This document shows, piece by piece, positions 37,939-55,898 of a DNA stretch of 64,000 bases. Origin of the DNA: Lachnospiraceae bacterium. GTDB lineage: Bacteria > Bacillota > Clostridia > Lachnospirales > Lachnospiraceae. Under the pieces are notes generated by a model, which was not told where the DNA came from, ran no database searches, and was given only the letters and a program-made list of their open reading frames with translations. The stretch's first letter is position 1. Every line of letters starts with the position of its first letter. Position numbers and translations under genes: made by a program. The stretch is taken from contig JAILRA010000024.1 in assembly GCA_024698715.1 (NCBI GenBank), positions 1 through 64,000 of the forward strand, written 5' to 3'.

Positions 37939-39300
37939 TTATAAAGATGTAATTATTTTTATTAATGAGTCTATTTTTTTCTCAAATTCAGGATCGTTTT
38001 CTATTAATTCTTTTACTTTATTAATATTGTGAATGACCGTTGAATGATCTTTATTCATTCTTTTACCTATATTGCTCTTTGAATCTTCGGTAAGTTTGTC
38101 GCAAAGATACATTACGGTCTGTCTGGATATGGCTATTTCCTTGTTTTTCTTTGAAGAAACAATATCATTAATGGAAATATTAAAATATTTTGATACTTCT
38201 TCTATAATTACATCGAAGTTTATAACTTTGGTCTTATTGGGATTTATGATATCCTTTAAGCTGTTTTTGGCCATTTCCAGAGTTATTTCATCAGAAGAGA
38301 TCCTTGATAAAGCTATAAGTTTGTTATAAGCTCCTTCAAGTTCTCTTATATTTGAACTGATATTATCGGTAATATAATTCAAAATATCATCATTTATCTT
38401 ATCACCGTGATTCTGATTTAACTGAATGAGGATTGCTTTTCTTGTTTCATAGTTGGGTGGCTGAACATCAACCTGAAGTCCCATCTGGAAACGTGTTAAA
38501 TATCTTTCATCCAGAATTTCCATATATTTAGGATGTTTATCGGAAGAAATGATTATTGATTTTCCGTTTTCATATAAAGAATTGAAAGTATGGAAAAATT
38601 CTTCCTGAGTTGCATCTTTTCCTATAATAAACTGAATATCATCTATCAGAAGAACATCAACATTTCTGTATTTTTCTCTTAAAATGGTCATGGATTCGGT
38701 ATTGTCTTTTTTACCGGATCTTATCGATTTAATAACTTCATTGGTGAAGTTTTCACTGTTTACGTATAAGATCTTAAGTTTAGGATTGTGCTCGTTAAGA
38801 TAATTTCCTATGGCATGCATAAGATGAGTCTTGCCGAGTCCGGATCCTCCGTAAATATATAAAGGGTTATATGCGTTATTATCCGTTCCGGCGGTTTCGG
38901 CAACAGCCAGGCAGGCACTTACCGCAAATGAGTTATTTCCGGTAACGAAATTATCAAAAGTATATTTTTTAATGAGACTTGAATTTGTAGATTCTTTTTC
39001 CTGATTATTGGATTGAGTTGAGCCGTTTTCCTGAGGTTTAACATTATCAACTATGAAATTGACATCATAATCGTTATTTAATGTTTCGGAAATTGCAATT
39101 ATAAAGATATCTTTGTATTTATCAGTTATTAGATCCAGTATTTTGGCTTTATTGTTGGGTAACATTATTGTTACGCTGTCTTCCGTTTCGCTGTAATATT
39201 CCATGGGATCAATCCATGTTTTTACGGCTATGGGAGATATATCATATTCGGTGATAACCGAATTTTTAATAATTTCCCATTTTTCTTCAACTGGTTTCAT
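37939..39300 (-). CDS. dnaA: Chromosomal replication initiator DnaA
   Basis: The 453-residue protein has an N-terminal interaction domain (1-90), a linker rich in Asn, Gln and Ser (about 92-110), the AAA+ domain with Walker A GGSGLGKTHL and Walker B DVLLIDDIQFI, and a C-terminal domain with the DnaA signature KDHSTVIHNINKV that binds DnaA boxes. It opens the origin at 39301-39783. It is the first gene of the leftward arm, with an AAGGAGG site and its own promoter. Confidence 0.98.
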   Translation of the reverse strand: MKPVEEKWEIIKNSVITEYDISPIAVKTWIDPMEYYSETEDSVTIMLPNNKAKILDLITDKYKDIFIIAISETLNNDYDVNFIVDNVKPQENGSTQSNNQEKESTNSSLIKKYTFDNFVTGNNSFAVSACLAVAETAGTDNNAYNPLYIYGGSGLGKTHLMHAIGNYLNEHNPKLKILYVNSENFTNEVIKSIRSGKKDNTESMTILREKYRNVDVLLIDDIQFIIGKDATQEEFFHTFNSLYENGKSIIISSDKHPKYMEILDERYLTRFQMGLQVDVQPPNYETRKAILIQLNQNHGDKINDDILNYITDNISSNIRELEGAYNKLIALSRISSDEITLEMAKNSLKDIINPNKTKVINFDVIIEEVSKYFNISINDIVSSKKNKEIAISRQTVMYLCDKLTEDSKSNIGKRMNKDHSTVIHNINKVKELIENDPEFEKKIDSLIKIITSL

Positions 39301-39324
39301 TTCAAAGCCTCCTTCGCTTACTAT

Positions 39325-39353
39325 ATTATATTTTATTGAAGGAATAAAATCAA
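39325..39353 (-). promoter_or_regulatory. dnaA promoter
   Basis: On the minus strand TTGATT (39348-39353) and TATAAT (39325-39330) are 17 bases apart, 25 bases from the dnaA ATG. Confidence 0.7.
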
Positions 39354-39546
39354 ATTTTTGAAGGGTTTAAAAAGGATTTTTGAAAATTTTCTTATGTCAA
39401 CTTTTAGCTGTTTTTAGGAAATTTTATGGGTTTATTTTGTGGTTAAAAAATATATACATTGAAAAATCCTTAATTTTAGGGAATAAAATTTAATAAATAT
39501 CGGTTATAAAACAAAAAAAAACATGAAATAAACCATTAATAAACAG

Positions 39547-39566
39547 TTATCAACAAGTTATCAACA
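39547..39566 (+). promoter_or_regulatory. Pair of DnaA boxes
   Basis: TTATCAACA occurs at 39547-39555 and 39558-39566 in the same orientation. Both differ from TTATCCACA at one base. Confidence 0.7.
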
Positions 39567-39713
39567 TATAGTGTATAATTTATGTAAATTTATTATTTTA
39601 ACTGTAAAACAGGCATTTTTCCATATTTTGTTATGTGTTTTGGATTTTTTACTATATCTTGAATAAAACTTTTTTGAATTTTTTTTTCTTATTTATAATA
39701 CATTTTTTTTTTG

Positions 39714-39742
39714 TTGACTTAAAAAAATACTTCTTATATAAT
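39714..39742 (+). promoter_or_regulatory. rpmH promoter
   Basis: TTGACT (39714-39719) and TATAAT (39737-39742) are exactly 17 bases apart, followed by a GGAGGT site at 39770-39775. Confidence 0.85.
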
Positions 39743-39783
39743 TTATGGTGTTTTCGACGTATAGGAAATGGAGGTAAGCTTTT

Positions 39784-39918
39784 ATGAAAATGACATTTCA
39801 GCCTAAGAAAAGACAGAGATCGAAAGTTCACGGCTTCAGAGCAAGAATGAGTACTCCCGGCGGAAGAAAAGTTTTACAGGCAAGAAGAGCTAAGGGAAGA
39901 AAAGTTTTATCAGCATAA
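39784..39918 (+). CDS. rpmH: 50S ribosomal protein L34
   Basis: The 44-residue protein is a small, very basic ribosomal protein of the large subunit. It starts [18 protein letters not shown] and contains the family signature [13 protein letters not shown]. The length is exactly the usual one. A strong GGAGGT ribosome binding site lies 8 bases upstream. It is the first gene of the rightward arm from the origin, upstream of rnpA as in most bacteria. Confidence 0.97.
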
Positions 39919-39931
39919 AGTTGAAATAAGC

Positions 39932-39957
39932 AGGCCGCAGATATGTGGCCTTTTTTT
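39932..39957 (+). terminator. Terminator or attenuator between rpmH and rnpA
   Basis: AGGCCGCA (39932-39939) pairs with TGTGGCCT (39944-39951), one G-T wobble, around a 4-base loop, then a T-run to 39957. It would limit read-through, keeping L34 more abundant than RNase P protein. Confidence 0.75.
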
Positions 39958-39975
39958 CGCTTATTATTTTTTATT

Positions 39976-40329
39976 ATGATATTCACACAATCATTAAAAA
40001 AAAATTCCGATTTTGAAATTGTTTACAAATCCGGCAAATCATATGCAAACAAATATCTGGTAATATATACGTTGAAAAATAACACGGATGAGAACAGACT
40101 CGGAATCTCGGTAAGCAAGAAAGTCGGAAACAGTGTTGTAAGACACAGGATCAAAAGACTTATCAAAGAAAGTTACAGACTGCACGAAAAAATGTTTAAT
40201 AGCGGTTTAGACATTGCAGTCATCGCGCGAAAAGGATCTGACGCTTGCGATTTTGCAAGTATTGAGAGTGCGCTTTTACATTTAATGAAATTAAACGGTA
40301 CACTGGATACCAATAAAGGTAATCAATAA
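39976..40329 (+). CDS. rnpA: Ribonuclease P protein component
   Basis: I start at 39976 (MIFTQSLKKNSDFE), the normal N-terminus; the longer in-frame start at 39943 would lie inside the terminator hairpin. The 117-residue basic protein binds the catalytic RNase P RNA and helps remove 5' leaders from tRNA precursors. The signature RLGISVSKKVGNSVVRHRIK with its conserved arginines is present. The start has no strong ribosome binding site, which fits low expression. Confidence 0.95.
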   Translation: MIFTQSLKKNSDFEIVYKSGKSYANKYLVIYTLKNNTDENRLGISVSKKVGNSVVRHRIKRLIKESYRLHEKMFNSGLDIAVIARKGSDACDFASIESALLHLMKLNGTLDTNKGNQ

Positions 40330-44931: not shown

Positions 44932-46833
44932 ATGGAAAATAACAGGAATAATCTGACAATTGAAACTGATGTATGTGTTATCGGAGCAGGTCATGCAGGC
45001 TGCGAGGCCGCTTTGGCATGTGCAAGACTCGGACTTAATACGGTTATTTTTACGGTATCGATAGAAAGTATTGCCCTGATGCCATGTAATCCCAATGTCG
45101 GCGGAACGAGTAAAGGTCATCTTGTAAGAGAACTTGATGCACTCGGCGGGGAGATGGGAAAGAACATCGATAAGACTTTTATCCAGTCAAAGATGCTTAA
45201 CCTTTCAAAAGGTCCTGCGGTTCATTCTTTAAGAGCACAGGCAGACAAAGCAAATTATTCTCATGAAATGAGAGAAACGCTTGAAAATCAGGAGAACCTG
45301 ACCATCAAGCAGGGTGAAGTCTGCGAGATCCTTTTTGATGAAGACGGTGATAACAAAATTATAAAAGGCGTAAGGATATTTACAGGAACGACTTATCTTT
45401 GCAAGGCAGTGATCATCTGTTCCGGAACATATCTTAATGCAAGATGTCTTTGCGGAGAAGCCATTACCTACACAGGTCCGAACGGTCTTCAGGCAGCAAC
45501 ATATCTTTCGGAATCTTTAAATGCGATGGGTGTGACTTTAAGAAGATTTAAAACCGGAACACCCGCAAGAATGGATAAGAGAAGCCTTGATTTTTCGAAG
45601 ATGGAAGAGCAGAAGGGTGATGAGAGGATCATTCCTTTTTCATTCTCCACGAATCCCGATGATATCCAGAAGGATCAGGTTTCCTGCTATCTTACATATA
45701 CCAATGAAGAGACTCATAAGATCATAAAAGCAAATCTTGATCGTTCACCGATCTATGCAGGTATTATTGAAGGTACAGGTCCGAGATACTGTCCTTCGAT
45801 CGAAGATAAAGTAGTTAAGTTTGCAGATAAAGAAAGACATCAGGTATTTATTGAACCTGAAGGATTATATACAAATGAAATGTATGTCGGAGGAATGAGT
45901 TCTTCACTTCCCGAAGATGTACAGCTTGCAATGTATCGAACAGTTCCCGGACTTGAGAATTGTAAGATCGTAAGAAACGCATATGCGATCGAATATGATT
46001 GCCTGACACCCGGACATTTAACTTTATCACTTGAGATAAAAGGTGTTTCCGGACTTTTCTCAGCAGGTCAGTTTAACGGATCTTCAGGATATGAAGAAGC
46101 TGCTGCACAGGGTTTAATTGCAGGTATAAATGCCGCAAGAAAAATCCAGGGAAAAGAACCTGTTATCTTAGACAGAAGTGAAGCTTACATCGGAGTTTTG
46201 ATTGACGATCTCGTTACAAAAGAAAATCTTGAGCCTTACAGAATGATGACTTCAAGAGCAGAGTACAGATTACTTCTTCGTCAGGATAATGCGGATTTCA
46301 GACTTCGTAAAATCGGTTACGAAGTTGGACTTGTAACAAAAGAACAATATGATTATGTTCTTTATAAAGATGAAAAAATTACTGCTGAAGTAGACAGACT
46401 TAAAAATACTTTTGTAGGTAGTGCAACCAAGAATCAGGAGTATCTTGAGTCACTTGGTTCTGCTCCTCTTAGAACCGGAACTTCACTTGCAGAATTACTT
46501 TGCAGACCTGAAATCACATATGAGAATCTTTCATTTTTTGATAAAGAAAGAGAACCTCTTTCAGAAGATATTATTGAACAGGTTTGCATCAGAATAAAGT
46601 ACGAAGGTTATATTGAAAGACAGGAAAGACAGGTTGCCGCTTTCAAAAAAATGGAGAAAAAATTAATACCTGATGATATTAATTATGATGATGTTTCTTC
46701 ACTTCGACTTGAAGCAAGACAGAAATTAAAACTTTTCAGACCGCTTTCCGTCGGACAGGCATCAAGAATCAGCGGAGTAACACCTGCAGATGTATCGGTT
46801 CTTTTGATATACCTTGCATCGATAGGAAAATAA
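44932..46833 (+). CDS. mnmG: tRNA uridine-5-carboxymethylaminomethyl modification protein MnmG (GidA)
   Basis: The 633-residue FAD protein partners MnmE in wobble uridine modification. The FAD-binding motif is [20 protein letters not shown] near the start. Further motifs are [31 protein letters not shown] and [17 protein letters not shown]. Length and motifs match the family. The gene is preceded by the GNAT and has a weak ribosome binding site. Confidence 0.97.
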
Positions 46834-46869
46834 ATTTTTTCGCTTTCTGACATTTTTGAAAGGTATTAT

Positions 46870-47328
46870 ATGAAAAAATTTTTTAGTATTTTACTTGTTG
46901 CTTTTTTGTCACTGTCCGTTTTGTCCGGTTGTTCCCGCAAACAGGTTGAACTGATTGATTATCACTCTGACAAAGCATTTACAAATAAATACGTGAAAGA
47001 TCTTGATGTTGAACACTGCGAATATGAAACTATAAGAATCGGATACGGTCTGAGAGGGAATCTGTCTTTGGGACCGACCGATCCGAGATACCGCGGAATC
47101 ATTACGATCAGTGAAGATGAAGCGAAAGAATTATTTAAATCATATAACTGGATTGAAGTTAATGATTTTGCCGATATAAATCTCGGTAATATATATCTTC
47201 CGGATATGGAAGCTGAAAAATGGTATTCCAGTTTTGAGTTTTCAAATGATTATATGTATATGGTTCAAACATATTACTGTTTGTTTAACGGAAAAGATAC
47301 TATAATTTTTGATGTTCAGACCTTTTAA
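46870..47328 (+). CDS. Predicted lipoprotein of unknown function
   Basis: The 152-residue product has a signal peptide (MKKFFSILLVAFLSLSV) and a lipobox L-S-G-C with the Cys at about residue 21, so it is lipidated and outside the membrane. A GAAAGG site lies upstream. The mature domain contains several Tyr and Trp residues and one later Cys. I do not recognise the family. It follows mnmG by 36 bases. Confidence 0.75.
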   Translation: MKKFFSILLVAFLSLSVLSGCSRKQVELIDYHSDKAFTNKYVKDLDVEHCEYETIRIGYGLRGNLSLGPTDPRYRGIITISEDEAKELFKSYNWIEVNDFADINLGNIYLPDMEAEKWYSSFEFSNDYMYMVQTYYCLFNGKDTIIFDVQTF

Positions 47329-47331
47329 TAC

Positions 47332-47349
47332 TGTCCGATTTATCGGACA
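47332..47349. repeat. GTCC/GGAC hairpin, copy 1
   Basis: TGTCCGA (47332-47338) pairs with TCGGACA (47343-47349) around a 4-base loop, between the lipoprotein and S41 genes. It is a looser member of the hairpin family also found at 48757 and 49614. Confidence 0.6.
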
Positions 47350-47403
47350 TATAAATTATAAACTTTTTACTGAATATTTTTACTTGAAATGAGGATTTTT
47401 TAA

Positions 47404-48714
47404 ATGAATAAAAAAATAATAAGAAATATTATTATAATTGTTTTTCTTATTGTCGTTTTAATTGCTTTTCCTTTTGTTGTTTATAATTTGTGTTTAAATC
47501 CGAAACGATTTTGTACTAAAGAATTTGCTGAATCTCTTCCTCTGGATACCGTTCTGACAAAACAACAGGTCAGGGAAGATATTGATTATACAATGAAGAT
47601 GATCCGGAAGCGTCACCCGGCATGGCTTGAAGAAAAGAATGCCAACGTTGATGCAGTTGAAGCAAAGTACCTCGAGGAAATTGCTGATCTTTCATCTTAC
47701 AGTGAGATTACTGTTCTTGATGAATGGATAATTATTTCTCGGATAATGCATGAAATGTATGACGGTCATACTTCTGTTTTTGCTTCTTCAGCGAAAAAAT
47801 ATATAAATGATTTTTCGGCACTTAAGGAATATGGTCCTCCGAAAAGTATTAACGGTGAAGATTCCGAAGATGTTTTTCAAAAGTTTCTTTCGGTTTACCA
47901 GTATGAAACCGAGAGATATGCAGAAAAAGTTTTTGTTAATAATGTGATCATTAATGAAGCCTATCTGACCTGGATCGGCTTAGACGTTTCAAACGGAGTT
48001 GATTTTGTTTTTGAAACTCCTGAAGGTGATAAAGAATTTCATTATGATTTTGTTCCTATAAGTGAAGTTACAGGTTTTGATAAAGCTGCTTCTGAAGAAT
48101 GGGTTCATTATGAAATAGATGAAGAAAACGGGATCGGAATATTTACATTAAACGACTGTTCCTATAATTCAGAATACAAAAAATGCGTTAAGGAATTTTT
48201 TGAATCCGTTGACGCTTCAGGAGTTGAAGATGTGATCGTTGATCTTCGTTATAACGGCGGAGGATCTTCAATGGTAGGTGATGAGTTCATCCGTTATCTG
48301 AATGTAGATAAATACAACGGATGGGACTCTGATGTACGATACGGTAATTTTCTTTATAAAAACAGAAATGTAGTTAATCATAATAATAAAGCAAATCCAC
48401 AGTTTAACGGTAATGTTTATGTTCTTACAAGCAGTTCGACATATAGTGCCGCAATGGATTTTACGATGTATATTCTTGATAACAATATCGGAGAAGTTGT
48501 CGGTGAAGCTTCGGGAAACATACCTGATTCATACGGTGATGTCGGCTATTTTACAGTTCCCAATTCGAAACTGACTATCGGTATTTCTGTTAAGAGATGG
48601 TACAGGATCGATCGCAGCAAAGCAGGTGAACTTCTTGAACCCGATCATCCCTGTGATCCCGAAGAAGCAGTGGAAAAGGCTTACGAAGTTATCAGGGAAA
48701 AAAGAAGTCAGTGA
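47404..48714 (+). CDS. S41 family peptidase, membrane-anchored
   Basis: The 436-residue protein starts with an uncleaved membrane helix (about residues 7-32), placing the rest outside the cell. The C-terminal half has the S41 tail-protease fold: VDLRYNGGGSS and YVLTSSSTYSAAMDFTMY, where the second motif holds the catalytic serine, then GEASGNIPDSYGD. The PDZ domain usual in C-terminal processing proteases is not evident. It probably processes or degrades extracytoplasmic proteins. The upstream lipoprotein may be co-expressed. Confidence 0.8.
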   Translation: MNKKIIRNIIIIVFLIVVLIAFPFVVYNLCLNPKRFCTKEFAESLPLDTVLTKQQVREDIDYTMKMIRKRHPAWLEEKNANVDAVEAKYLEEIADLSSYSEITVLDEWIIISRIMHEMYDGHTSVFASSAKKYINDFSALKEYGPPKSINGEDSEDVFQKFLSVYQYETERYAEKVFVNNVIINEAYLTWIGLDVSNGVDFVFETPEGDKEFHYDFVPISEVTGFDKAASEEWVHYEIDEENGIGIFTLNDCSYNSEYKKCVKEFFESVDASGVEDVIVDLRYNGGGSSMVGDEFIRYLNVDKYNGWDSDVRYGNFLYKNRNVVNHNNKANPQFNGNVYVLTSSSTYSAAMDFTMYILDNNIGEVVGEASGNIPDSYGDVGYFTVPNSKLTIGISVKRWYRIDRSKAGELLEPDHPCDPEEAVEKAYEVIREKRSQ

Positions 48715-48756
48715 TTATTTTTAAAAAAACTGCTGACGAAAAAACTAATGATATTT

Positions 48757-48782
48757 TATATGTCCAATAAAAAGGACATGTA
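48757..48782. repeat. GTCC/GGAC hairpin, copy 2
   Basis: TATATGTCC (48757-48765) pairs with GGACATGTA (48774-48782), one wobble, around the loop AATAAAAA. It lies between the S41 and GNAT genes and is almost identical to copy 3 inside rsmG. Confidence 0.75.
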
Positions 48783-48840
48783 AATATATAATAGAATTTC
48801 TTCATACTTACTTAATTATTTACATTACAGAGGAAAAAAT

Positions 48841-49299
48841 ATGTTACAGGAAATCAATAATATTGAAGAAAAGATGCGCATAGCAAGAAATATACTTGAA
48901 GCTCTTTTTAACTGGTTTGAAATTCCGGAAACCAGAGAACAGTATATTTCAGACAGTGCAAATATGATCATGGTAGCTGCATACGAGGATGACAAACCTA
49001 TAGGTTTTCTCTGCCTTAAAGAAACAGGAAAGGAAACCGTAGAACTTGCTGTCATGGGAGTATTGCAGGAATACCACAGAAAAGGTGTCGGAAAATCTCT
49101 TTTCAAAAAAGCCAAAGAGATCGCAATAGAAAAAGGTTATTCATTCATGCAGGTTAAGACAGTTAAAATGGGTGTGTATGATGACTATGACAAAACCAAT
49201 CTTTTCTATTTAAGTCTTGGCTTTAAGGAATTCGAAGTATTTCCTTTGTTATGGGATGAGGCTAATCCCTGCCAGGTTTATTTTATGTCTTTAAAATAA
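48841..49299 (+). CDS. GNAT family N-acetyltransferase
   Basis: The 152-residue protein has the acetyl-CoA loop region EYHRKGVGKSLFKKAKEIA (about 80-98) and a later KTNLFYLSLGFKEFEVFP motif, both typical of GNAT enzymes. An AGAGGAAAAAAT region precedes the ATG. The substrate is unknown. Its stop codon is 4 bases before the rsmG start, so the two are co-transcribed. Confidence 0.85.
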   Translation: MLQEINNIEEKMRIARNILEALFNWFEIPETREQYISDSANMIMVAAYEDDKPIGFLCLKETGKETVELAVMGVLQEYHRKGVGKSLFKKAKEIAIEKGYSFMQVKTVKMGVYDDYDKTNLFYLSLGFKEFEVFPLLWDEANPCQVYFMSLK

Positions 49300-49303
49300 T
49301 TTT

Positions 49304-50188
49304 ATGGAACAGTTTATCAAAGATTTACAAGAATGGAATATAGAAGTATCGGATGAACAACTTGGTATGTTTGAAAAATATACCGGGCTTTTACTTGATT
49401 GGAATGAGAAAATAAATCTCACGGCAATTACGGATATCAATGATATTTATAAGAAACACTACCTTGATTCCGCATCATTGATCAATTGCAAAATTCCTTT
49501 AAGTAACGGTGTTCTGCTTTCGGATCTTCTTATCAAAGATATCAATATTTGTCGTAATGAAAATGAATCGGATCATCTGACTGACGCAGATAATTCATGT
49601 ACATCAAATATAATTGATATGTCCAATAAAACGGACATATCAAATTCTGAAATTAATTCGTCAATATTAAATGATGCACATCCGATAAGTGTTCTCGATC
49701 TTGGTTCCGGCGCAGGTTTTCCGGGTATACCATTAAAGATTCTGTTTCCTTCACTGAATATAACTTTGGCAGACTCTCTTAATAAACGGATCGGATTCCT
49801 TAATCTTGTTATCGATGAACTGGGTCTAAAAGGTATAAAGGCTGTTCATACCAGAGCCGAGGAAATTGCTCATGATAAAGAATATCGTGAACAATATGAT
49901 CTGGTAGTATCGAGAGCTGTAGCCAATCTTTCTGTTTTATCTGAATACTGTATTCCTTTTGTAAAAGAAGGCGGATATTTTATATCATATAAATCAGGTA
50001 ACAGTTCAGATGAGATTTCCTCTGCTAAAAATGCTATAGGTATGCTTGGCGGAAAATATATCGGTTGTTTTGATTTTAATTTACCGAATTCTGATTATTC
50101 ACGCAGTAATATTTGTATAAAGAAAATAAAGAATACGGAAGATCGTTTCCCGCGTAAATCGGGAACTCCTTCAAAGAAACCTTTATAG
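49304..50188 (+). CDS. rsmG: 16S rRNA (guanine-527-N7)-methyltransferase with an extra internal segment
   Basis: The 294-residue enzyme methylates G527 of 16S rRNA. The N-terminal LLDWNEKINLTAIT (about 30-43) and the SAM motif VLDLGSGAGFPGIPLK (about 130-145) are typical. Between KKHYLDSASL and the SAM motif, residues about 70-127 form a segment rich in Asn, Ser and Asp that is absent from the usual protein of about 240 residues. An 11-bp perfect palindrome is coded within it. The frame is maintained, so the enzyme is probably active. Confidence 0.93.
   Translation: MEQFIKDLQEWNIEVSDEQLGMFEKYTGLLLDWNEKINLTAITDINDIYKKHYLDSASLINCKIPLSNGVLLSDLLIKDINICRNENESDHLTDADNSCTSNIIDMSNKTDISNSEINSSILNDAHPISVLDLGSGAGFPGIPLKILFPSLNITLADSLNKRIGFLNLVIDELGLKGIKAVHTRAEEIAHDKEYREQYDLVVSRAVANLSVLSEYCIPFVKEGGYFISYKSGNSSDEISSAKNAIGMLGGKYIGCFDFNLPNSDYSRSNICIKKIKNTEDRFPRKSGTPSKKPL
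49614..49643. repeat. GTCC/GGAC hairpin, copy 3, inside the rsmG coding sequence
   Basis: TTGATATGTCC (49614-49624) and GGACATATCAA (49633-49643) are exact 11-bp inverted copies around AATAAAAC. The core matches the intergenic copy at 48757. It codes for residues about 104-114 of RsmG, inside the extra segment. Confidence 0.85.
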
Positions 50189-50196
50189 GTTTTTTC
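50176..50196 (+). terminator. Terminator after rsmG
   Basis: AAACCT and AGGTTT form a 6-bp stem with a TTAT loop, followed by a T-run. It overlaps the last codons of rsmG. Confidence 0.55.
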
Positions 50197-50240
50197 GGAC
50201 ATAATTTTTTGATTGAAAGTGTTGTTATACGGAGGTTTGT

Positions 50241-50840
50241 ATGTTTTGGGATTCAGCTTCTCTCTTATATGATCTGTTCGAACATATTTATAATCATAAG
50301 TCGTATGTCGGAACCGGATTAATGGTTGAGCGCGAAATAGAATATGGTGACGATGTACTTGAATGTGCATGCGGAACCGGAGGCATCAGTGTTTATATCT
50401 GTAAGAAAAGCGGTCATCTTGTAGCAACGGATTTTTCTGTAGGTATGTTAAAACAGACTGCATGGAAACTGAGACATAATCATAATTCCATTGTAAGAAA
50501 AGCCGATATGACAAATCTTAAATGCAGGGATGATCGTTTTGATAAAGTTGTTGCCGGTAATGTTATTCATCTTTTGGATGATCCTGAATCGGCTGTAAGA
50601 GAACTGGTCAGAGTTTGCAAAGTCGGTGGCAAAGTAATCATTCCGACATACATAAATATGTATAACGGAAAGACAGGTTTTATTGTAAAGTTTATCGGAA
50701 AAGCCGGAGCAAAATTTAAAAGACAATTTGATCTCAGATCATATATGAAGTTTTTTGAAGATGCGGGATATACCGATGTAGAATACCATGTTGTAAAAGG
50801 AAGAATTCCCTGCGCGATAGCTGTTATTACAAAACATTAA
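50241..50840 (+). CDS. Class I SAM-dependent methyltransferase
   Basis: The 199-residue protein has the SAM-binding motif DDVLECACGTGGISVYI (about 36-52), an acidic residue after the second strand (VATDFSVGML) and the motif GNVIHLLDDPESAVRELVRV, which are typical of UbiE/Methyltransf_11 enzymes. The substrate is not known. A CGGAGG site lies upstream of the ATG. It sits between rsmG and the first parS cluster. Confidence 0.82.
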   Translation: MFWDSASLLYDLFEHIYNHKSYVGTGLMVEREIEYGDDVLECACGTGGISVYICKKSGHLVATDFSVGMLKQTAWKLRHNHNSIVRKADMTNLKCRDDRFDKVVAGNVIHLLDDPESAVRELVRVCKVGGKVIIPTYINMYNGKTGFIVKFIGKAGAKFKRQFDLRSYMKFFEDAGYTDVEYHVVKGRIPCAIAVITKH

Positions 50841-50955: not shown

Positions 50956-50971
50956 TGTTTCACGTGAAACG
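50956..50971. promoter_or_regulatory. parS site 1
   Basis: TGTTTCACGTGAAACG matches the ParB binding consensus TGTTTCACGTGAAACA with one mismatch at the end. Confidence 0.9.
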
Positions 50972-50993
50972 TTTTTCAGAAAATGGCAGATAA

Positions 50994-51009
50994 TGTTTCA
51001 CGTGAAACA
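50994..51009. promoter_or_regulatory. parS site 2
   Basis: TGTTTCACGTGAAACA is an exact parS consensus and perfect palindrome, 38 bases from site 1. Confidence 0.95.
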
Positions 51010-51071
51010 TTTTATACAATATTTTGAGTTGAAAATGTGAAACTGATTTTAGTATATTTATATATATAGTA

Positions 51072-51087
51072 TGTTTCACGTGAAACA
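51072..51087. promoter_or_regulatory. parS site 3
   Basis: TGTTTCACGTGAAACA is an exact parS consensus, 78 bases from site 2. Confidence 0.95.
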
Positions 51088-51158
51088 TTTTGATATGTAT
51101 TATCTATATTTAGTATCACCATATACATTTATTTATAAAAGGTTATTGGGGCAATCGG

Positions 51159-51671
51159 ATGGATAAGGGCAGAATTATTTTTTTAAACGGAGTTACAAGT
51201 TCGGGAAAAACTACAATAGTTGAAGCATTGCAGGAACAAAGAGATATATTCTTTTACGTTGTTGCAAATGATCTTTTTCAGGAGATGGTCGGTGAACAAT
51301 ATCTGCAGGAAGACTATTGGAAGTATCTGTCAGAAGTAATAATCATGATGTATCATACTGCAAAATTGTATTCCGATATGGGAAAAAATGTTTTGATTGA
51401 CGGAATCCTTGTGGAACGTGAAGAGATAAAACCACATTATCAGAAACTTCTGGAAATTTTAAAAGATAACCCGCTGGATATTGTAGAAATATACTGTCCT
51501 CTTGATATCTGCAGACAAAGAAATATCGAACGCGGTGATCGTTATGAATCTCAGTCTGAAGAACAGTCCGAGATCATGTCCAAAGATATCTCATATACTT
51601 TAAGTGTAGATACTAGTAAGAATACACCGGAAGAATGTGCAAAGCAGATAATTGATAGGATATTTAAATAA
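51159..51671 (+). CDS. Chloramphenicol-phosphotransferase-like P-loop kinase, paralogue 1
   Basis: The 170-residue protein has Walker A GVTSSGKTT at about residues 11-19, a central DGILVERE motif and an end region CPLDICRQRNIERGDR with arginines for a lid. This pattern fits the CPT-like family of small-molecule kinases, which includes the chloramphenicol phosphotransferase of Streptomyces. A role in antibiotic modification here is only a possibility. It lies just after the first parS cluster and is followed by a paralogue. Confidence 0.7.
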   Translation: MDKGRIIFLNGVTSSGKTTIVEALQEQRDIFFYVVANDLFQEMVGEQYLQEDYWKYLSEVIIMMYHTAKLYSDMGKNVLIDGILVEREEIKPHYQKLLEILKDNPLDIVEIYCPLDICRQRNIERGDRYESQSEEQSEIMSKDISYTLSVDTSKNTPEECAKQIIDRIFK

Positions 51672-51793
51672 CAAATCGACAAGTATAACAGATAAAGGTT
51701 ACTTAGTCCCAAAGTATTAATAGTTCTATATGGAATGTCACCGGAAAATATAAATAAGAAAATAGAAAAGAAACAGGAATACATTTATATCAG

Positions 51794-52303
51794 ATGAAAA
51801 AACATGTAATACTGCTTAACGGTCCTTCAAGCAGCGGAAAGTCTACATTGTCAAGATCCCTGAAAAAAATAATTGAGTACGGATGCAATAAAATATATGA
51901 GATAATCTCCATCGATGATTTTATGAAGATAGAAGAAGATGAAACTATCTATGAGGATGATGTTTTTGAAATATCCGGAGATATGTGCAATGAACTTCAA
52001 AAACTTCTTCAATCTAAAGATGGGGTTATTATTGATCATGTGATCACAAGTGAAAGAATTTACGAGCAGTTATTGGAAGCGGTCAAAGAATTTGATCTTA
52101 TAAAGGTTCATGTAACATGTCCGGTGGAAATTCTTATTGAAAGAGAAACTGCAAGAGGTAACAGATGTAAGGGATCTGCAGAAGATTCTTTTAATTATCT
52201 TTATCCGAAAAACGGTTATGATTTAACAGTCGATACATCGGTATTGACTTCCGAAGAAGCGGCAAGTATTATATACGAACATATTATTGAATTAAATATT
52301 TAA
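51794..52303 (+). CDS. Chloramphenicol-phosphotransferase-like P-loop kinase, paralogue 2
   Basis: The 169-residue protein has Walker A GPSSSGKST at about residues 10-18, an acidic SIDDFMKIEEDE region and the lid motif CPVEILIERETARGNR, in the same order as in the preceding gene. The C-terminal LTVDTSVLTSEEAA matches LSVDTSKNTPEECA of that gene, so they probably arose by tandem duplication, followed by strong divergence. The substrate is unknown. Confidence 0.7.
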   Translation: MKKHVILLNGPSSSGKSTLSRSLKKIIEYGCNKIYEIISIDDFMKIEEDETIYEDDVFEISGDMCNELQKLLQSKDGVIIDHVITSERIYEQLLEAVKEFDLIKVHVTCPVEILIERETARGNRCKGSAEDSFNYLYPKNGYDLTVDTSVLTSEEAASIIYEHIIELNI

Positions 52304-52327
52304 GTATTCTAAAGGAAACATCAGATA

Positions 52328-52369
52328 ATCAAACTGATATACAGATTATTAAACCATGATCAGTTTGAT
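52328..52369. promoter_or_regulatory. Inverted repeat upstream of the Nudix gene
   Basis: ATCAAACTGAT (52328-52338) and ATCAGTTTGAT (52359-52369) are exact inverted copies 20 bases apart, just upstream of a TATAAT at 52384-52389. It may be an operator or a weak hairpin. Confidence 0.4.
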
Positions 52370-52419
52370 CAGGTTGTCTGATATATAATGATCAGAATAA
52401 AAGATTACGGAGAAACAAT

Positions 52420-52884
52420 ATGACCGGATATATGTCTGAAATGAGAAAACTGGTTGGACATAAAACGATAATCCAGTGTGCGGGAAGCATAATCTGTGTT
52501 GATCAAAACGGAAGACTTTTACTTGGAAAAAGATCGGATAATCATCTCTGGGGTTATTCTGGCGGTGCAGTTGAAATCGATGAAAATGTAGAAGACACTG
52601 CCAGAAGAGAATTGTATGAAGAGATGGGGCTTACCGCAGGAGAACTCGAATTCTTTTGTGTTAATTCCGGACCGGAAGCTCATTACATATATCCTAACGG
52701 AGATGAAGTATCCAATTTTGAGATCGTATATATCTGCAGAGATTGGGGCGGAGAACCAAGATCGAACGACGGAGAGATGGAAGAAATCAGATTCTTTACA
52801 CCGGATGAGATAGATTTATCGGAAATATCTCCGCCGATAAGACCTGTAATGAGAAAGTATATTGAAGAGAAAATTACGAAATGA
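52420..52884 (+). CDS. Nudix hydrolase
   Basis: The 154-residue protein has the Nudix box GGAVEIDENVEDTARRELYE (then EMGL) at about residues 47-70. The N-terminal strand (VCAGSIICVDQNGRLLLGKR-like arrangement) is typical of the fold. The substrate is unknown. The stop codon overlaps the next gene by 4 bases (ATGA), so it is co-translated with the hydrolase. A GGAGAAA site precedes the ATG. Confidence 0.85.
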   Translation: MTGYMSEMRKLVGHKTIIQCAGSIICVDQNGRLLLGKRSDNHLWGYSGGAVEIDENVEDTARRELYEEMGLTAGELEFFCVNSGPEAHYIYPNGDEVSNFEIVYICRDWGGEPRSNDGEMEEIRFFTPDEIDLSEISPPIRPVMRKYIEEKITK

Positions 52885-53684
52885 CAGAAAAAATCCTAAA
52901 GACAGAATCCGGAAATATTCATTATTGGATAACGGAAAAGATCGATACAAATAAAATATCCATATTTTTCTTACATGGACTGACGGCAAATCACAATCTG
53001 TTTGTTAATCAGATTTCCTATTTTTCGTCCGAATATAATGTGATCGCATGGGATGCACCGGCTCACGGAAGTTCGAGACCTTTTAATGAATTTACATACG
53101 AGAAAGCAGCAATCGCCGCAAAGCAGATACTCGTAGAAAACAATATAGAAAAGGCTGTATTTGTCGGACAGTCTTTGGGCGGATATATCACACAGTCAAC
53201 CATAAAGAGATTTCCGGAAATCGTGCAGGGATTCGTATCGGTTGACAGTACACCGTACGGAGAAAAATATTATAAAAAATCTGATATCTGGTGGCTCTAT
53301 CAGATAGAATGGATGTCCAAACTCTATCCGGACAAAGCTTTAAGAAAAGCAATAGCCAAACAGAATACCTTAACCGAACATGCATATCAGAACATGTTTG
53401 AAATGCTTAAAGATTATGAGAAGAATGAACTCTGTCATTTAATGTCAGTCGGATATGCCGGATTCCTGGAAGATAACTGCGATATGGAAATTAAATGTCC
53501 GATCCTTCTGCTTCTTGGAAGAAAAGATAAAACAGGAAAAGTTCGACAGTACAATAAGGCTTGGTCGGAAACGATCGGAGTCACGATTACATGGATAGAA
53601 AATGCAGCTCATAATTCCAATGAAGATCAGCCTGAGCAGGTAAATGAGGAAATAGAAAAATTTCTAAGATCGTTGAGTAGATAA
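52881..53684 (+). CDS. Alpha/beta hydrolase
   Basis: The 267-residue protein has the oxyanion motif FFLHGLTAN (about 31-39), the nucleophile elbow VGQSLGG (serine at about residue 97) and the catalytic histidine in ENAAHNSNEDQPEQV near the C-terminus. It hydrolyses an ester, amide or related bond. There is no signal peptide. It overlaps the Nudix gene by 4 bases. Together they form the end of the cassette between the two parS clusters. Confidence 0.87.
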   Translation: MTEKILKTESGNIHYWITEKIDTNKISIFFLHGLTANHNLFVNQISYFSSEYNVIAWDAPAHGSSRPFNEFTYEKAAIAAKQILVENNIEKAVFVGQSLGGYITQSTIKRFPEIVQGFVSVDSTPYGEKYYKKSDIWWLYQIEWMSKLYPDKALRKAIAKQNTLTEHAYQNMFEMLKDYEKNELCHLMSVGYAGFLEDNCDMEIKCPILLLLGRKDKTGKVRQYNKAWSETIGVTITWIENAAHNSNEDQPEQVNEEIEKFLRSLSR

Positions 53685-53736
53685 AATATCTTAACAACAA
53701 TCTATATATTGATTTTTAGTACTTTCTATATATAGA

Positions 53737-53752
53737 TGTTTCACGTGAAACC
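53737..53752. promoter_or_regulatory. parS site 4
   Basis: TGTTTCACGTGAAACC matches the parS consensus except for the last base. Confidence 0.9.
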
Positions 53753-53786
53753 CAATTTAACGGAATTATATAAAAGTCATACATAA

Positions 53787-53802
53787 TGTTTCACGTGAAA
53801 CA
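53787..53802. promoter_or_regulatory. parS site 5
   Basis: TGTTTCACGTGAAACA is an exact parS consensus, 50 bases from site 4. Confidence 0.95.
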
Positions 53803-54194
53803 TTGGACACAATATTTGGTAAAAAAAGTGTGAAACATTTTTTCACGGGTCATATATATAGTAAGGAAAATGTGAAACAAAAAATCCTGAAAATCCATAT
53901 TTAGTGTTAAGTAAAAATTCCAATTTGCCTTAGAAAGATTTTTCGAAAATATTATATGATTTTTGAATCCGTAAATCAGTACGAAACACATACAATTTTC
54001 AAAGTATTGGTGGAATCAAACACTGGTTTCGGAAAATAAAAAATTCAAATAAAGAATCCAAAAGAAATAAAAATTGGTAATTATTTTGGTAGATAAAGAA
54101 GTACAAGAGTGATATTATGATAAAGGTGCCAAAGTCACATATTGTTTGCGCTTGGCAAATACTATGTGAAATCGGAATATACAGGAGAGTGTAA

Positions 54195-54959
54195 ATGGGC
54201 AGAGTAATAGCAGTAGCCAATCAAAAGGGCGGAGTCGGAAAGACGACAACGGCCATCAATCTGTCAGCGGCATTAGCACATAAGGGCAAAAAAGTGCTTT
54301 TGATAGATATGGATCCGCAGGGAAATGCAACCAGCGGTTTCGGTATTGAGAAAAATGAAATCGAAAATACGGTATATGAACTGATGCTTGGAGAATGTTC
54401 CATAAAGGAATGTATCATTCCCAATGTATATGAATCTCTTTCGCTGATACCTTCCAATGTAAATCTGGCGGCAGCGGAAATCGAGCTTATAGATGTGGAC
54501 AGAAAAGAATATGTCCTGAAAAACGAAGTGGACTGGATCAAGGATCAGTATGATTATATTTTCATTGACTGTCCTCCTTCACTCAGCATGCTTACGGTCA
54601 ATGCGATGACGACGGCCGGAAGTGTCCTCGTTCCGATCCAGTGTGAATACTATGCAATGGAAGGATTGAGCCAGTTGATCTACACTATCAATCTGATCAA
54701 GAAAAAACTTAATCCCGCGCTGGATATGGAAGGCGTGGTATTTACGATGTATGATTCGAGAACCAGACTTTCACAGGATGTTGTGGACAGTGTAAAGAGC
54801 GATCTGGTCGATCAGAGAATATTCGAAACAAACATTCCGAGAAATGTCAGACTTGCAGAGGCACCCAGTTACGGATTGCCCATTATAGCATATGACGAAA
54901 AATCGGCGGGTGCGGAAGGCTACAACAAACTTGCGGATGAACTCATGAAAATCCGTTGA
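54195..54959 (+). CDS. parA: Chromosome partitioning ATPase ParA (Soj)
   Basis: The 254-residue ATPase has the deviant Walker A motif KGGVGKTTT at about residues 11-19 and the downstream VLLIDMDPQGN and IFIDCPPSLSMLT motifs. It works with ParB and parS to segregate the origin and, as Soj, to control DnaA in other Firmicutes. No N-terminal DNA-binding domain is present, as for chromosomal ParA. A GGAGAG site precedes the ATG. It is followed by parB. Confidence 0.96.
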   Translation: MGRVIAVANQKGGVGKTTTAINLSAALAHKGKKVLLIDMDPQGNATSGFGIEKNEIENTVYELMLGECSIKECIIPNVYESLSLIPSNVNLAAAEIELIDVDRKEYVLKNEVDWIKDQYDYIFIDCPPSLSMLTVNAMTTAGSVLVPIQCEYYAMEGLSQLIYTINLIKKKLNPALDMEGVVFTMYDSRTRLSQDVVDSVKSDLVDQRIFETNIPRNVRLAEAPSYGLPIIAYDEKSAGAEGYNKLADELMKIR

Positions 54960-55022
54960 AATTAATTACAAAAATGACCGATGCGGTCAAAATGATTATA
55001 ATATTTTCCAGGGGGAAGAAGA

Positions 55023-55898
55023 ATGAGCGTAAAAAAGGGCGGTCTAAATAAAAAAGGAAAAGGTCTTAGTGCACTTATAGATTCAAATGGTGAACAGCCC
55101 ACAGTTAACGAAAAGATCAAAGACAGCTTAAGAATGGTCAATATATCCAAGGTTGAGCCCAATAAGTCTCAGCCGAGAAATAATTTTAATGAAGATTCAC
55201 TCAATGAACTGGCTGAATCCATTAAAGAGATCGGAATACTTGAACCGCTTATTGTTCAGGACAGAAAGTCATATTACGAGATAATCTGCGGCGAGAGAAG
55301 ATGGAGAGCTGCAAATATTGCAGGCATTACCGAAGTTCCCGTGATCATCAAGGACTTAACCGACCAGGAAATCGTTGAAATAGCTTTAATAGAGAATATT
55401 CAGAGAGAAGATCTCAATCCCGTTGAAGAGGCACGTGCATATAAAAGACTGATCGAGGAGTTCAATCTTAAACAGGATGAAGTGGCAAAAAGGGTTTCAA
55501 AGAGCAGAACAACAATAACCAATGCCATGAGGATCTTAAAACTCAGCAGTCCGGTTCTGCAGATGCTTATAGACGAGATGATCACCGAAGGACATGCGAG
55601 AGCACTTCTCGGAGTTGAAGACGAAGAAGTTCAGTACAATCTGGCTCAGAGAGTATTCGATGAAAAGATGAGTGTCCGCGAGGTTGAGAAGGCTGTAAGA
55701 AATCTCGGCAAGGAAAAGATCTCAAAAGTCAAAGTCAATACACAGATTGCGGATGCATACAAGAAATACGAAAACACGCTCAAGGATAAACTCGGTACCA
55801 AAGTAAGCGTCAGTACAAAAGAAAACGGAAGCGGAAAAATCGAGATCGAGTTTTATTCCGGCGATGATTTTGAAAGAATAATGGATTGTTTCAAATAA
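55023..55898 (+). CDS. parB: Chromosome partitioning protein ParB (Spo0J)
   Basis: The 291-residue protein has the N-terminal ParB/Srx CTPase region (QPRNNFNEDSLNELAESIKE, then ICGERRWRAANIAG) and a central helix-turn-helix (EVAKRVSKSRTTITNAMRIL) that binds parS. The motif GERRWRA is the nucleotide-contacting signature. The C-terminus is a dimerisation region. It should bind the five parS sites upstream and load condensin near the origin. Confidence 0.96.
   Translation: MSVKKGGLNKKGKGLSALIDSNGEQPTVNEKIKDSLRMVNISKVEPNKSQPRNNFNEDSLNELAESIKEIGILEPLIVQDRKSYYEIICGERRWRAANIAGITEVPVIIKDLTDQEIVEIALIENIQREDLNPVEEARAYKRLIEEFNLKQDEVAKRVSKSRTTITNAMRILKLSSPVLQMLIDEMITEGHARALLGVEDEEVQYNLAQRVFDEKMSVREVEKAVRNLGKEKISKVKVNTQIADAYKKYENTLKDKLGTKVSVSTKENGSGKIEIEFYSGDDFERIMDCFK

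Follow-up and report, generated by a model that had tools for sequence, protein, structure and literature searches.

Three hairpins around rsmG in the window, a 64,000-nt stretch of a Lachnospiraceae bacterium genome (contig JAILRA010000024.1), are probably (we estimate about 0.7) copies of an 18-bp putative binding sequence, TGTMC-RATAAANN-GKACA, recognised by a dimeric protein of the Lachnospiraceae clade to which the genome belongs. The computational analysis revealed the family itself, a fixed 8-bp spacing between the half-sites, the limits of the family to the clade, the retention of sites before rsmG and at carA and dapF, and a -10-like box at about half of the intergenic copies. The putative protein would bind the two half-sites as a dimer. 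Where a promoter follows, the bound protein would cover the -35 region and most likely repress transcription, while copies within genes would also be bound but serve another role, such as chromosome organisation, road-block or titration.

Three hairpins with a common core in the window

The earlier note on this DNA had described three GTCC-loop-GGAC hairpins within 2.3 kb, one of them intergenic near 48757 and one with an 11-bp perfect stem inside rsmG, and all three were found again, at 47332-47349, 48755-48784, and 49614-49643 (Table 1). Its statement that two of them share the loop was correct but overlooked the third, since site 1, on the minus strand, is of the same type, GTCC-GATAAATC-GGAC. 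The 18-bp core TGTCC-RATAAANN-GGACA is common to all three. Allowing up to two mismatches, the pattern GTCCAATAAAANGGAC matched three times in the window compared to 0.19 expected matches, and none of 100 shuffled sequences reached three. The chance that 3 of 14 random sites in the 2.93-Mb genome fall within 2,306 bp is 0.0007, as calculated post hoc.

Table 1. Hairpin sites, neighbouring genes and parS-type sequences in the window
Feature	Position	Strand	Remarks
Lipoprotein-like gene	46870..47328	+	In front of site 1; named by eye, no Pfam match
Site 1, TGTCCGATAAATCGGACA	47332..47349	-	Directly after the stop codon of the lipoprotein-like gene, ahead of the S41 peptidase gene
S41 peptidase gene	47404..48714	+	Between sites 1 and 2
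Site 2, TGTCCAATAAAAAGGACA	core 48761..48778	+	S41 peptidase/GNAT intergenic region; extended hairpin 48755-48784, 10/11 pairs
GNAT acetyltransferase gene	48841..49299	+	Between sites 2 and 3; Pfam Acetyltransf_1
rsmG	49304..50188	+	294 aa; 4 nt between the GNAT stop codon and its start
RsmG extra segment	49496..49684 (borders approximate)	+	About residues 65-127; carries site 3
Site 3, TGTCCAATAAAACGGACA	core 49620..49637	+	Inside rsmG, reads M-S-N-K-T-D; hairpin 49614-49643, 11-bp perfect stem (11/11 pairs), 8-nt loop
parS-type cluster	50956..51087	+	Exact matches to the parS consensus at 50994 and 51072, and one copy with 1 mismatch
Further parS copies	53737, 53787		1 mismatch and exact, respectively

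Copy number and clade limits of the family

The genome search that the earlier note had proposed identified 12 exact copies of TGTCCRATAAAN{1,3}GGACA in the genome of the window (reversed control, 0) and 14 copies of a shorter core. We then extended the comparison to 61 genomes, comprising this one, 30 others of its genus, and 30 from the family and order. The pattern GTCCRATAAAN{1,3}GGAC was present in 18 of them (17 of the 31 genus genomes and 1 of the 30 outside the genus), and its reversed control matched once in each of three genomes. Among the 114 matches listed, four had a spacing other than two N, and none of the four belonged to the clade; from the 110 listed with two N, 104 distinct copies were kept, including one (locus L040) from outside the clade. 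The form TGTMCRATAAANNGKACA occurred in 15 of the 31 genus genomes, with 4-23 copies in each of 14 genomes and a single copy in G001, and its control gave 0 matches in all 31.

A usable LexA was available from 12 of the 14 genomes with at least four copies, and these 12 form one clade with a support of 100/100 in a tree of 22 rows that also includes 10 other genus genomes; G015, with a split frame, was left out, and G029 and seven other genomes gave no lexA match and hence lie outside the tree. The LexA proteins of the clade (L359-L370) have strongly diverged from the rest of the genus, with inner branches of 0.84 and 0.89 changes per column.

Half-site pairs and stem pairing

At least 24 of the 52 TGTCCN{2,20}GGACA pairs in the genome of the window have exactly 8 bp between the half-sites, compared to 2.4 expected from the reversed control (46 pairs over 19 spacings). 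The fourth stem pair is broken in 47 of the 150 listed copies, a set that includes a minority of the G008 copies and none from G015, and four of these broken copies are intergenic. The two positions of this pair are associated over all 150 rows (odds ratio 2.9, p = 0.016), but the association vanishes without the ten dapF rows (odds ratio 1.09, p = 1). The feature that is kept is the half-site pair at fixed spacing rather than the stem. The RATAAA centre is asymmetric, an asymmetry that would not be required in a simple symmetric dimer site and that counts against the recognition-site reading.

These data bear on the explanation of the hairpins as functional RNA structures that act in transcripts as terminators, processing sites or regulator sites. 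Such a function would agree with the stems of sites 2 and 3 and with the longer outer stems observed in some copies of other Clostridia. In contrast, the broken fourth pairs (four of them in intergenic copies), the dependence of the pair association on the dapF rows, and the occurrence of both orientations argue against it. As read from the sequence, no T-run of the kind that marks an intrinsic terminator follows the window hairpins, and an Rfam search of positions 46500-50500 up to E = 1 returned only SNORD50, below the gathering score and off the hairpins. We consider an RNA function of this kind highly improbable.

Placement of the copies within and between genes

Based on mechanical ORF calls, 61 of the 98 classified copies lie within open reading frames and 37 are intergenic. 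The flanking genes could be called on both sides for 36 of the intergenic copies, and they are co-directional in every case. Forward copies account for 45 of the 61 coding copies and share a single frame of the two that are free of stops; the other 16 are antisense. The forward copies read (M/V/L)S(D/N)K(T/S/P/A)D and similar, and thus the peptide of site 3 is found again in other proteins; a hairpin family dispersed both between and inside genes had been anticipated in the earlier note, and the in-gene forward copies additionally use one preferred frame. The recurrent host genes, named by eye, encode AroA, CarA, a U32 peptidase, a GT2 protein, a PfkB-type fusion (in its linker), an activase, and HemW, so that in-frame copies occur in unrelated genes, and many copies sit in genes with housekeeping functions. 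In total, coding copies amount to approximately 4 per clade genome (61 in 14 genomes) compared to approximately 0.05 expected under a codon Markov model.

A mobile palindrome resembling the Rickettsia palindromic elements, inserting between genes and in frame within genes to become a peptide insertion, was the mechanism favoured at the outset. Rickettsia palindromic elements are mobile insertions of 100-150 bp that, like the present family, place a palindrome in frame within genes as well as between them. The dispersal of the copies, the single forward frame, the frequent location in variable-length loops and linkers, and the position of the RsmG copy in a 57-residue insertion are all in line with this mechanism.

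The RsmG protein of this genome has 294 residues, compared to 236-244 in 10 aligned relatives, and in the alignment the extra segment replaces a 6-residue loop of the relatives with a net gain of 57 residues. The segment of about 58 residues said to be absent from normal RsmG is therefore real, with 57 extra residues that none of the 10 aligned relatives has, and the alignment also bore out that the insertion is genome-specific and carries one hairpin copy. These alignments represent 11 of 30 loci, the rest having been removed by a motif filter; among the other 48 genomes giving RsmG matches, no match covers residues 71-91. When the insert DNA was searched in the genus, the best non-self matches were 25-42 nt long and fell within query positions 114-164, i.e. 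the hairpin region, while the remainder gave scattered weak matches (best 6e-4 in G017). The repeated unit is thus not the whole inserted segment, as it would be for a Rickettsia palindromic element. Among the loci compared (carA, aroA, and RsmG), a clean insertion was seen in RsmG alone.

The other two loci differ from RsmG in this respect. In carA, genes with and without the site differ by substitutions at equal length, and no empty site of the kind left by an inserted element was observed. In aroA, the site lies at one fixed place beside a variable-length loop, and the lengths vary both with and without it; 5 of the 11 clade genomes examined lack the aroA site, and 6 of the 11 genes were chosen because they carry it. 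The present sites are also shorter (approximately 18-40 bp) than the Rickettsia elements and whole copies are retained at matching places, while stem pairing is not. The proposed mechanism was therefore not upheld: what recurs is a stretch of approximately 25-40 nt rather than the 57-aa insert, the length of carA is unchanged by the site, the aroA site keeps one place, and the half-site pair rather than the stem is preserved. We regard a mobile palindrome, whether of the Rickettsia or the REP type, as very unlikely. As a more general caution, a palindrome that lies in frame and yields a recurring peptide is not necessarily a mobile element.

Retention of sites at matching places

The recognition-site reading is supported by sites that recur at corresponding positions in the clade. 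In 10 of 13 clade genomes, selected by rsmG and not by the site, a copy lies 540-820 bp upstream of the rsmG start, mostly before the GNAT gene, in a scan that required TGTMC and GKACA. In G029 this copy precedes the lipoprotein-like gene instead of the GNAT gene, and in G007 its orientation is reversed. The arms are identical in 10 of 10 copies under that scan, while identity is 76% in the centre, 47% in the 20 nt before, and 68% in approximately 10 nt after the site. A copy with a similar flank is present in G009 (L090) at the position matching site 1. Sites 1 and 2 would accordingly belong to a set kept by many clade genomes round the mnmG-rsmG segment beside oriC. The 4-nt gap between GNAT and rsmG in the genome of the window leaves no room for the site that the 10 clade genomes have before rsmG. 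Site 3 probably arrived with the genome-specific insertion, its lineage lacking the usual pre-rsmG site, and could stand in for the missing one.

Codon-level comparisons were made for the two coding loci. Six-codon windows of carA were compared with the genome of the window as anchor: those on the site are preserved in 8 and 7 of 10 relatives, whereas 351 of the 379 are preserved in no relative. Another carA window, KIILED, is likewise unchanged in 7 of 10 relatives, and no six-codon window is identical throughout all 11 carA genes compared. In dapF, where the site has the form TGTAC-GTACA, the windows on the site are preserved in 9 of 9 other genomes, the next separate window is unchanged in 2 relatives, and 259 of 281 windows are unchanged in none. 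The retention figures are too favourable, because the pattern served to select all 9 of the dapF genomes and 7 of the 10 used for carA. Among the three carA genomes picked independently of it, the site has one base change in G003 and is missing from G026 and G029; the fully listed genomes G010 and G016 lack the dapF form.

The 18 bp seem to be under selection at the DNA level, given that 7-8 of 10 relatives preserve the carA site intact whereas none preserves any of the 351 windows (of 379) noted above. Our confidence in the recognition-site reading is reduced by the wholly pattern-picked dapF set and by the second carA window, which is nearly as well kept. Few bacterial sites have been shown to be selected at the DNA level within protein-coding sequence, and carA and dapF point that way; together with the clear species clade available for comparison, they make a direct hunt for the binding protein worthwhile.

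Promoter geometry

A -10-like box, TA[TC]NNT, is located at +10/+11 after the palindrome, read with TTTAT forward, in 18 of the 37 intergenic copies, compared to a background of 0.82 per position elsewhere. Nine of these promoter-type copies precede a small membrane protein gene whose product has no Pfam match, six precede GNAT genes, and three are at single loci; this origin mainly from two orthologous groups counts against the recognition-site reading. Coding copies mostly lack the box, which is found at +10 in 6 of 61. A TATAAT with no more than one mismatch stands at +10 in 15 of 67 copies from records not assigned to the clade (80 of the 110 stretches in this sample were used, 14 of them being set aside as clade members).

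In other Clostridia, the palindrome lies approximately 10 bp upstream of a -10-like box before recA (L253), a UvrD helicase gene (L213, weaker box), and genes for a PARG-like protein and for a membrane protein apparently bearing LysM, as judged by eye (L236, L388); in these Clostridia it is perhaps an SOS-type operator. A relaxed promoter pattern matched in 19 of 391 Clostridia genomes, the genome of the window included, compared to 7 for the reversed control, and this search carries little by itself. In viral contigs, three stretches matched the promoter pattern and gave no clear lead.

The promoter geometry could also be explained by a classical operator of one transcription regulator, with the coding copies arising by coincidence from S-(D/N)-K-x-D or other protein constraints. 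As in operators at -35 bound by repressors, LexA boxes included, the palindrome stands 10-11 bp upstream of TATAAT-like boxes, and the copies before recA, UvrD helicase, and small membrane protein genes in other Clostridia suggest an SOS-like regulon. Conserved protein motifs also coincide with the dapF and hydF-like copies. However, the coding copies, 61 of the 98 classified, number approximately 4 per clade genome where approximately 0.05 are expected, and the codons at the carA and dapF sites are conserved in contrast to those of almost every other window. We thus find it unlikely that a classical operator alone accounts for the family.

The oriC neighbourhood and candidate binding proteins

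oriC is placed in the window by dnaA (minus strand) and rnpA, both by eye, and by the parS copies and parA-parB (37939-40329 and 50956-55898), and the three sites are approximately 8-10 kb from the dnaA start. The identity of the palindrome with parS was rejected, as the window has its own parS copies of a different sequence (Table 1). This parS-type cluster falls outside the motif family, and ParB thus has its own site here.

The palindrome with up to two mismatches was absent from all 22 of the 24 lexA loci in which a frame was found; the other two, including that of the clade genome G016, gave no frame. The lexA genes of the clade bear other boxes by eye, CGAAAATATGTTTG and GAAAATATGTTCG, and the palindrome is seemingly not the LexA box of the clade, being missing at the lexA loci read.

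A ParB-family protein of 283-285 aa is encoded behind rplM-rpsI (by eye) in six clade genomes (L317:2980-3828, L318-L322). This orphan ParB is 98-100% identical in five genomes and 76% identical in G009, and the surrounding stretches contain no ParA gene. It appears unlikely to be the binder, as all six carriers are clade members but 8 of the 14 clade genomes, mostly drafts and including the genome of the window, lack it; the palindrome with up to two mismatches occurred in none of 12 loci round ParB paralogues. No protein tracking the sites was found with this one candidate tried, which is evidence against the recognition-site reading.

Dispersed sites that organise bacterial chromosomes include matS (bound by MatP), SBS (SlmA), NBS (Noc), and parS (ParB). 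The present family resembles them in being a short palindrome with about ten to a few dozen genic and intergenic copies per chromosome and in having a cluster beside oriC and parS, the one grouping along the ori-ter axis that the unordered draft contigs show. Unlike them, it has half-sites set apart by an asymmetric, AT-rich centre, and 18 of its 37 intergenic copies are coupled to a -10-like box. Many copies were found in and between genes at matching places, though some of the comparison genomes were picked by the pattern. A lineage-specific chromosome-organising system, in which one putative protein would use 10-30 dispersed 18-bp sites, several of them near oriC, and also repress promoters, is a tentative and on balance doubtful proposal. 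If true, the in-gene sites would have arisen by point mutation in housekeeping genes and been kept against synonymous drift, and the system would have arisen independently as a counterpart of matS/SBS/NBS, possibly from an SOS-type repressor.

Copies in other genomes

A literature search for the exact palindrome strings found no paper. Among named records, Lachnospiraceae bacterium G41 and numerous MAGs from gut and rumen match TGTCCGATAAAWCGGACA exactly. The Lachnospiraceae MAG Red_deer_4_mag_23 has five exact copies (L197, L211, L221, L231, and L233), all within reading frames and sharing one frame, M/V-S-D-K-x-D. Similar proteins with the same in-gene palindrome are encoded at L177 and L181, in MAGs labelled Bacteroidales and Oscillospiraceae. 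WOR-3/Stahlbacteria MAGs also carry copies (L227, L219, L224, and L251), two of which are adjacent at L227:2575-2612.
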